From assembly GCA_028692545.1 (NCBI GenBank), contig JAQUXC010000006.1, positions 1 to 61,961 on the forward strand: DNA of 61,961 nt. Direction: 5' to 3'. The translations under genes and the position numbers were made by a program. Shown in pieces: positions 1 to 2,528 of the stretch (the stretch's first letter is position 1; each line of letters opens with the position of its first letter). Under the pieces are notes generated by a model. That model was not told the origin of the DNA, did no database searches, and worked only from the letters and a program-made list of their open reading frames with translations. This DNA comes from Patescibacteria group bacterium (GTDB taxonomy: Bacteria; Patescibacteriota; Patescibacteriia; UBA1558; S5-K13).

Positions 1-1029
1 AATATAGGATATATATCTATGAATTGTTCTAATACTAATACATGTGATGACAATAATTACAAGGTATCAACAGATTGGATTCCAAAATCAGCAAGACCAT
101 CATCTGGTTCAACAGGTGGAGGATGGAATGGTTCTACAATAGTTACACCACCAACTATACCAACATATTCTACAACTGTTACACCAGCAAATGGTGGAAC
201 ACTTAATTATACATTTACTGATAATTCTAGTATTACTGTTGTAGTACCAGCTAATACTGTAATATCTAATACCACTATTACTGTAAGCGAAGGGTCATTA
301 AGTACTGATAATACACCAAATAGTAGTACTGGTGCATTTATGATTGGTAATAGTATATTTAATATATCAGCAATTGATATTAATAATAGTTCTATTACAT
401 CATTTACTAATAATCTAACTATATCAATAACATTATCTAGTATTCCATCTGATACATCTAATCTAGGAGTATATTATTATGATACAACACTTGATAGCTG
501 GATATTAGTAGAAAATGCTGTATTTGATACAGTTACAAATAAAGTTGTGTTTACTGTAAATCATCTAACAAAGTTTGCAATATTTAACATTACTGGAGTA
601 CCAGATACTATAGATACAAATGATGTAGAAAGTAGTATTCCACAATCATTCTGGACTACAGGTAAGTGGGTAAAGACAGAGGATAGAAGTACTGTGTACT
701 TTGTAGATAGTAATAATGATAGACATGCATATCCAAATGAAAGTATATGGTATTCATATTTTGATAATGATTTTTCATTTGTTTCTACAATAACTAAAGA
801 AGAACTAGCTACTTATACACTAGGAAAGAATGTTCCATATAATACTGGTATACTATTTAAAATACCAACAGTAGCTAAAGTATATCTAGTAGGAGTAAAT
901 GGACTTATACAATGGATAAAGACAGAAGAAAAAGCAATAGAACTATATGGAGCTAATTGGAATAAGTTAGTTCATGATTTACCAGATGAATTCTTTGGGG
1001 ATTATACTGAAGGAGAAGAGATTGAATAA
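1..1029 (+). CDS. Secreted/surface protein with Patescibacteria-type repeat module (5' partial)
   Basis: The frame is open to the left edge, so the real start lies outside the window. The first internal ATG is at 19. The visible 342 residues hold a Ser/Thr/Asn-rich linker. An Ig-like beta domain follows at about residues 45-195 (counting from the ATG at 19) and ends in NHLTKFAIF, the usual end of surface adhesin-like domains. The C-terminal module at about 215-330 contains paired W-[IV]-K-T-E motifs, VYFVDSNNDRHAYPNE and a closing PDEFFGDYTEG; it recurs in large extracellular proteins of Patescibacteria. No enzyme motif is visible. It probably acts outside the cell as an envelope or attachment protein. 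The neighbouring gene is also exported. Assignment of the module is from recall of the family; the exact role is unknown. Confidence 0.72.
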   Translation, partial: NIGYISMNCSNTNTCDDNNYKVSTDWIPKSARPSSGSTGGGWNGSTIVTPPTIPTYSTTVTPANGGTLNYTFTDNSSITVVVPANTVISNTTITVSEGSLSTDNTPNSSTGAFMIGNSIFNISAIDINNSSITSFTNNLTISITLSSIPSDTSNLGVYYYDTTLDSWILVENAVFDTVTNKVVFTVNHLTKFAIFNITGVPDTIDTNDVESSIPQSFWTTGKWVKTEDRSTVYFVDSNNDRHAYPNESIWYSYFDNDFSFVSTITKEELATYTLGKNVPYNTGILFKIPTVAKVYLVGVNGLIQWIKTEEKAIELYGANWNKLVHDLPDEFFGDYTEGEEIE

Positions 1030-1202: not shown

Positions 1203-2048
1203 ATGAAAACAAAAAACATCTTAAAAAACATTTCATTTGCAGTACTAGTAATACTTATTACATTTAGTATTACAAAGGCAGGAGATCTATTTCCGAGTGG
1301 TACAAGTATATTACCAACATTCTATACACTAGGAGATATATACGACAAATTAACAGACAATACAACATCCGCAGATGAAGGAGATCATGATCTTACATCA
1401 TCAGCCACACCAGCATCTACATTTCATACACTAAAAGATATATATGAAGCAATACCAACTATTGATGCAGATAAAATGCTTACAACTGCAACATATATGG
1501 GTGTAACAGGGGCAATAGAAACAAAAACAATATCAAATACAACAGTAGAAATAGGTGGAGGATTTTATGATGCAACCAACTTAACCACCATAGATACAGA
1601 CCTATCAGAAGGTAATATACTATCAGGAGTAACTATATTTGGAGTAGGTGGAACTGCTTTATCAAATATGTTCAATGGTACGGGACAAGGAATAACAGGC
1701 GGAGCAACTTCAACAGGTGGAGTAGATGATTATAATAATGGAGGAGAACCACCAGCAAATAGATATGAAGCAACTTGGACACAATGTAATCTTGCAAATA
1801 CATATTGTGGAACAGGAGATAGTTTTGCACAAGCAAAGGACAACAATACAAATCTAATATGGGCACTACCATGTGCAGGAGTAGGATGTTCATCAAATAG
1901 TACAACAACAGCAACATATTATTCGTGGGATAATTCAGGTGTAGATAATGATGGAATGACCGCTCAAGAATTATGTTCAAGTTTAGGATTAGATTGGACC
2001 ACATCAGAAACAATTAATGCAAGCATATATAGATGGTTCTTATGGTAA
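1203..2048 (+). CDS. Secreted DUF1566-type (C-type-lectin-fold) protein, probable DGR target, frameshifted
   Basis: An N-terminal signal peptide (hydrophobic residues about 10-26, ending near TKAGD) is followed by two copies of a [FY]xTLxDIY motif (TFYTLGDIYDKL, TFHTLKDIYEAI) and a Gly-rich linker. From about residue 185 a DUF1566/Lcl-like region begins (ATWTQCNL, NTNLIWALPC, YYSWDNSG, AQELCSSLGLDW). Family members normally continue with DW-R-L-P-x-x-K-E-L-M. Here the frame breaks right after DW and ends in a spurious tail. The expected continuation, HQKQLMQAYIDGSYGNLEF, is intact in another frame at about 2001-2205. A loss of five bases after 1999 would explain the break, but a sequencing error is possible. 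The N-terminal layout resembles CPR retroelement-diversified surface proteins. Confidence 0.75.
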   Translation: MKTKNILKNISFAVLVILITFSITKAGDLFPSGTSILPTFYTLGDIYDKLTDNTTSADEGDHDLTSSATPASTFHTLKDIYEAIPTIDADKMLTTATYMGVTGAIETKTISNTTVEIGGGFYDATNLTTIDTDLSEGNILSGVTIFGVGGTALSNMFNGTGQGITGGATSTGGVDDYNNGGEPPANRYEATWTQCNLANTYCGTGDSFAQAKDNNTNLIWALPCAGVGCSSNSTTTATYYSWDNSGVDNDGMTAQELCSSLGLDWTTSETINASIYRWFLW

Positions 2049-2205
2049 TCTTGAATTTCCCGGTACAGGTGACAATTACTGGTCTGCTACGGCGTTTTCG
2101 GACTACACTGACTTTGCCTGGTACGTCCGTTTAGGGTACGGGAACACGGACGTCAACGGTAAGGGTGGGGCCGGCAGAGTTCGTTGCGTTCGCTTGGCAA
2201 ATTAA
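2017..2205 (+). pseudogene. C-terminal half of the DUF1566 protein in the shifted frame
   Basis: This frame carries the rest of the preceding protein: LMQAYIDGSYGNLEF, then NYWSAT, AWYVRLGYGN and the closing RVRCVRL that ends DUF1566 domains. Open reading extends upstream to about 2001, so the ATG at 2017 is an internal methionine (LMQAY) and not a start. Without the frameshift the protein would be about 335 residues. Base use changes abruptly here, with GCC, GTC, CGT, CGC, GGG and ACG codons that the rest of the window avoids. Confidence 0.7.
2055..2202 (+). other. Candidate DGR variable region (VR)
   Basis: This is a GC-rich island in an AT-rich gene, at the 3' end of a C-type-lectin-fold (DUF1566) gene, which is where DGR variable regions sit. 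Residues that vary in such targets are those whose codons would be AAC or AAT in a template repeat. Here those positions read as Tyr, Asp, Gly, Arg, Val and Leu codons (GACTAC, TACGTCCGT, GGGTAC, GACGTC, GGTGGGGCCGGC) among fixed GCC-TGG and GTTCGTTGCGTTCGC segments. That pattern is expected from adenine-specific mutagenesis. No template repeat or reverse transcriptase is visible in the window, so it would be a remote target. The bounds are approximate. Confidence 0.6.
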
Positions 2206-2305
2206 TCACGTGAGATAGGCATATTAAAACCTCATATCATTGTTTATCTTTGTATAATGTTAAAATATCAGTATATTAACAATTAAATTATCTCACGGGA
2301 TTAAT
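2201..2305. repeat. 17-bp inverted repeat immediately after the variable region
   Basis: ATTAATCACGTGAGATA (2201-2217, starting inside the stop codon region) is matched by its reverse complement at 2289-2305 with one mismatch. A second short pair, ATTGTT and AACAAT, nests inside. The enclosed 71 bp is plain AT-rich DNA. In characterised DGRs a hairpin or cruciform just downstream of the variable region aids retrohoming; this element is in the right place but has a much larger loop. It could also be a large-loop terminator. Confidence 0.55.
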
Positions 2306-2350
2306 ATTTGATTATTTGATGATTTGGATTATTTGATTATTTATTTATTT

Positions 2351-2370
2351 CATCCCGCTAGAGCGGGATG
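2351..2370. repeat. CATCCCGCT hairpin repeat
   Basis: CATCCCGCT and AGCGGGATG form a 9-bp perfect stem around AG. It shares the CCCGC core of the element at 1060-1081. The remaining bases from 2306 to 2528 are AT-rich spacer in which I see nothing else. Confidence 0.55.
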
Positions 2371-2528
2371 AAAAATTTAAATTTTATGGCTCAATATGAT
2401 CATTTACAGATTTTTAGATCTTCATACAAATTAATTATATAAATTAAAAAGAACATTATTTATTGATTTCTTTTTATGTTATACAATATAATTATATAGT
2501 TTAATGATTTAAAATATAATATAAATTT

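Follow-up and report, generated by a model that had tools for sequence, protein, structure and literature searches.

The variable region VR2 (positions 2053-2205), which closes a DUF1566/Lcl_C gene of the window (the whole analysed stretch of 61,961 nucleotides, contig C6), is likely to be a true DGR variable region whose target gene is orphaned, frameshifted as assembled and probably dead. On the best reading, the orphaned target would be a leftover of cassette loss or of partial duplication, like the remote target of Treponema denticola SP32, and a remnant of this kind is already known (PMC4891356).

The last 132 nt of the window gene were found to contain 53.8% GC, whereas the preceding 132 nt and the rest of the gene contained 35.6% and 35.2% GC, respectively. 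A frame of 62 aa at the C-terminus was found to match Lcl_C with E = 2.5e-7 and 31.4 bits, slightly below the Pfam cut-off for Lcl_C/DUF1566 of 34.9. The switch from AT-rich to GC-rich sequence at the gene end and the DUF1566 type of the target gene, both part of the original prediction, were borne out, and so was the claim that the window holds neither TR nor RT, the matches in the assembly being those on contig C1 (TR, variable region VR1 and RT) and a different RT on contig C8. The features of the window locus and of two further paralogues are given in the table.

Table. Location of the features at the window locus and of two further DUF1566 paralogues
Feature	Location	Strand	Remarks
Upstream repeat-family gene, 3′ part	1..1029	+	paralogue of L006:6695-8131, 92% aa identity; truncated by the contig start
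DGR target paralogue, exported N-terminal part	1203..2048	+	ORF ends before the VR
Frame-shifting 5-nt deletion site relative to the C1 paralogue	1996..2004	+	comparison with paralogues
Lcl_C (DUF1566) C-terminus with VR, out of frame	2017..2205	+	Pfam PF07603
VR2 core	2062..2193	+	comparison with C1 TR
3′ invariant block AGAGTTCGTTGCGTTCGC (IMH-like)	2176..2193	+	3 mismatches to C1 TR
~105-nt element with 17-nt terminal inverted repeats	2201..2305	.	between VR and hairpin
GC-rich hairpin, 12-bp stem	2348..2373	.	stem unlike the C1 hairpin
avd relic, 18 codons	2386..2442	+	sequence match to C1 avd
DUF1566 paralogue	C16:18721-19713		strong Lcl_C match, GC-rich end
DUF1566 paralogue	C11:13794-14648		strong Lcl_C match, GC-rich end

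A 5-nt deletion near position 1999 was found to break the frame between the exported N-terminus and VR2, five bases of the C1 paralogue being absent near 2000 and the VR frame (2017-2205) differing from that of the ORF at 1203-2048. The reading frame was kept at this site in C1, in a Paceibacterota contig (L022) and in other paralogues. The frameshift parts the VR from the signal peptide, and the predicted secreted protein bearing the variable region was not supported for the gene as assembled; the arrangement of a DGR target, with the VR closing the gene in the same frame, was not found in the assembly, where the ORF ends at 2048. Judged by its sequence, the window gene is a pseudogene as assembled, although the assembly may be in error at the 5-nt deletion. 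Across 62 codons the frame of VR2 stays open, and the decay would therefore be recent, if any, or the gene still in use.

The genome of the window is a 1.07 Mb draft of 23 contigs with an estimated completeness of 99.4%. A search of the 23 contigs gave three matches to VR2, namely VR2 itself, C1:135168-135332 and C1:135939-136090, and an RT was found to adjoin both matches on C1. The C1 locus was found to contain the upstream repeat-family gene (478 aa), followed by the target (354 aa), Avd (120 aa), the TR and the RT (416 aa), the last being convergent on the opposite strand. The C1 target matched Lcl_C with 42 bits, and Avd matched PF22296 bAvd with 67.2 bits (cut-off 40) and the NCBIfam model DivGenRetAVD with E = 1.4e-19 and 70.3 bits, under the cut-off of 80. 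The RT matched RVT_1 with 72.7 bits and was found to contain the motifs QGLPIGNLTSQ and YMRYVDD, which are known for DGR RTs. Its best PDB match was 8ub7 ('Reverse transcriptase', E = 3e-35), which we take to be the BPP-1 DGR RT. The C1 locus is a DGR cassette with a DGR-type RT, Avd and a TR/VR pair differing at template A only, and its RT was the only DGR-type RT found in the assembly.

The template comparison covered 132 aligned bases, of which 45 are A in the C1 TR and 87 are not. VR1 was found to differ from the TR at 19 of the 45 A and at 0/87 non-A bases (p = 6e-11), with no mismatch in the 3′ invariant block, and retrohoming is faithful at non-A template bases, as VR1 shows. VR2 was found to differ at 24/45 A and at 14/87 non-A bases (Fisher p = 1e-5, odds 6). 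The differences were concentrated at template A, and the conserved blocks and A-focused pattern noticed in the window were confirmed; this A preference supports a DGR origin of VR2. The non-A template bases, which are to be preserved in a target of the C1 DGR, were not preserved in VR2 (p = 7e-5 for non-A mismatches, VR2 versus VR1). Since VR2 differs at 14 non-A bases, the C1 TR in its present form was not its last writer. Of the original prediction, a DGR-type VR ending a DUF1566-type gene and a cassette with a homologous template elsewhere in the genome were upheld, the TR lying beside a DGR-type RT on C1; the near-identity expected of that template failed at the non-A bases.

Nine of the 14 non-A differences of VR2 fall on the third base of a codon, and the rate of 16% for the 14 is close to the 20% of the target just upstream (positions 1716-1999), as paralogue divergence would give; VR2 has probably been separated from the C1 template for about as long as the adjoining upstream part of the gene. 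A third template is an alternative indistinguishable from such a separation. No other template for VR2 was found in the 23 contigs of the draft genome, VR2-matching DNA was absent from the 35 other genomes of the order that were searched, and phages gave no DNA match for a VR2 template. One match of the 18-nt 3′ block in a viral contig was set aside as chance, its frame and gene being unrelated.

The DUF1566 paralogues on C16 and C11 were found to contain 49-51% GC at their ends. Between the two, 29 of the 36 differences in the last 132 nt fall on the first or second base of a codon, as against 24 of 42 in the 270 nt before. No template for their VRs was found in the assembly, and together they seem to form a third VR type, likewise orphaned there. 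In all, the draft genome contains one template against four paralogous targets of DGR type, whose VRs fall into three types; only the VR1 target still follows the template. The RT on C8 was rejected as a second DGR RT: it carries QGVPLIALFTN and YIRIGDD, RT_UG26 is the best of the named PADLOC classes for it, and its opening 330 nt showed nothing resembling a TR. This RT (L007:323-1582, +) is directly followed by an ABC-transporter-like protein (L007:1557-3272, +).

The upstream repeat-family gene was found to have 19 matches in the genome, many of them partial or mosaic copies and some situated at contig ends, and is a probable cause of breaks in the assembly. Since the draft consists of 23 contigs and C6 itself starts inside the repeated locus, the assembly may have missed a second cassette bearing the matching template. 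It is unlikely, however, that VR2 is the live remote target of a second template or cassette that the draft lacks and that the frameshift is an assembly error: the contig ends falling within the repeat family, the open VR2 frame and the common third VR type of C16 and C11, also without template, favour this explanation, but the single DGR-type RT at such completeness, the avd relic, the missing cassette and the frameshift argue against it.

The window and C1 loci were found to be identical at the N-terminus (0/283 differences, the opening 283 nt of the target ORF), followed by differences of 30% in the middle and 20% before the VR, and by identical stretches behind it (0/44 and 0/64). The long identical stretches indicate recent exchange between the two loci, a point against the orphan reading, and the variation of identity from 67 to 100% by segment points to recombination between paralogues. 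Of the C1 locus, the window copy retains the upstream gene, the target and the start of avd, and lacks the avd tail, the TR and the RT. The avd relic was found to be identical to the C1 avd start at 49/49 nt, followed by unrelated sequence with a stop; a junction of the relic with sequence beyond the C1 RT was rejected, only chance short matches being found. The mosaic loci are also in line with a GC-rich Lcl_C C-terminus that was spread by paralogue recombination and diverged under positive selection, no DGR ever having acted here, an explanation made very improbable by the strictly A-templated VR1, the preference of the VR2 differences for template A and the conserved template-like blocks. 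Least probable of all is the original reading, in which the distant C1 cassette in its present state serves VR2 as a live remote target. The A-biased differences and the presence of a homologous TR and RT in this genome speak for it, but it is contradicted by the non-A mismatches, of which three fall in the 3′ priming block while VR1 has none at all, and by the lost frame.

The distance from the VR to a GC-rich hairpin behind it was 44 nt for VR1 and for the variable copy of a Moraniibacteriota contig (L021), 59 nt for that of L022 and, in the orphans, 111 nt (C16), 113 nt (C11) and 143 nt (VR2). An element of ~100 nt (window 2201-2305, C11:14647-14748 and C16:18563-18721) separates the VR from the hairpin in all three orphans; full-length relatives were found only behind these three VRs, and it is absent at C1. 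In phage BPP-1, natural spacings between VR and hairpin are 4-34 bp, homing is lowered by longer spacers, and the structure of the stem counts for homing, not its sequence (PMC3240598). A spacer inserted between VR and hairpin might have uncoupled the three orphan targets from retrohoming and frozen their variants, a doubtful proposal; the hairpins may equally be transcription terminators. The stems of the window hairpin (2348-2373) and the C1 hairpin (L006:9378-9408) were found to be wholly unlike, between identical flanks of 44 and 64 nt.

The window locus is a mosaic paralogue of the C1 DGR locus in which the upstream gene, the target and the avd start were retained. If VR2 is the leftover of a DGR target, it would have been last rewritten by a template homologous to, yet unlike, the C1 TR: the C1 TR in an earlier form, or a TR of its own that has since disappeared. 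The locus would have lost its TR, its RT and the tail of avd, and in the assembly the 5-nt deletion places VR2 out of frame; we infer in this way the order of events, the past activity at the site and its loss of function. With the rule that non-A template bases must match, a fossil and a live remote DGR target can be separated without reads. The window locus suggests that DGR targets may outlive their templates as frozen variants, and counts of remote targets made from the sequence pattern alone may include dead ones.

Among the known systems, the remote target of T. denticola SP32 has a VR fitting another TR type and was read as a leftover of another cassette; other isolates carry the TR that fits it, with 21 differences, 19 of them at A (PMC4891356). 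In T. denticola SP32 and in the window alike, a target lies away from the core cassette and its VR misfits the resident TR; the window differs by its frameshifted gene and its avd relic, and the search for a fitting TR gave none. Like the BPP-1 DGR, C1 shows A-specific transfer from TR to VR, Avd, RT and a hairpin behind the VR, which lies 4 bp after the VR in BPP-1 and 44 nt (VR1) or 143 nt (VR2) here (PMC3240598). The L022 contig was found to contain the same order of target, avd and TR with a convergent RT as C1, its template and variable copy differing mainly at A, and L021 was found to contain a TR/VR-like pair with 15/16 differences at A. The C-type-lectin fold of the original prediction may apply to the target, in which the Lcl_C domain was found, an AlphaFold model of the L022 target (pLDDT 36) being unusable. 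The C1 RT is related to RTs of Moraniibacteriota and Paceibacterota. Like the Patescibacteria DGRs of clade 2 (Roux et al. 2021, PMC8144416), C1 is chromosomal, lies in a small genome and has an Lcl_C/DUF1566 target and bAvd, a likeness drawn from gene content and RT relatives; unlike them, its genome combines a single cassette with several orphaned targets whose VRs are of other types.
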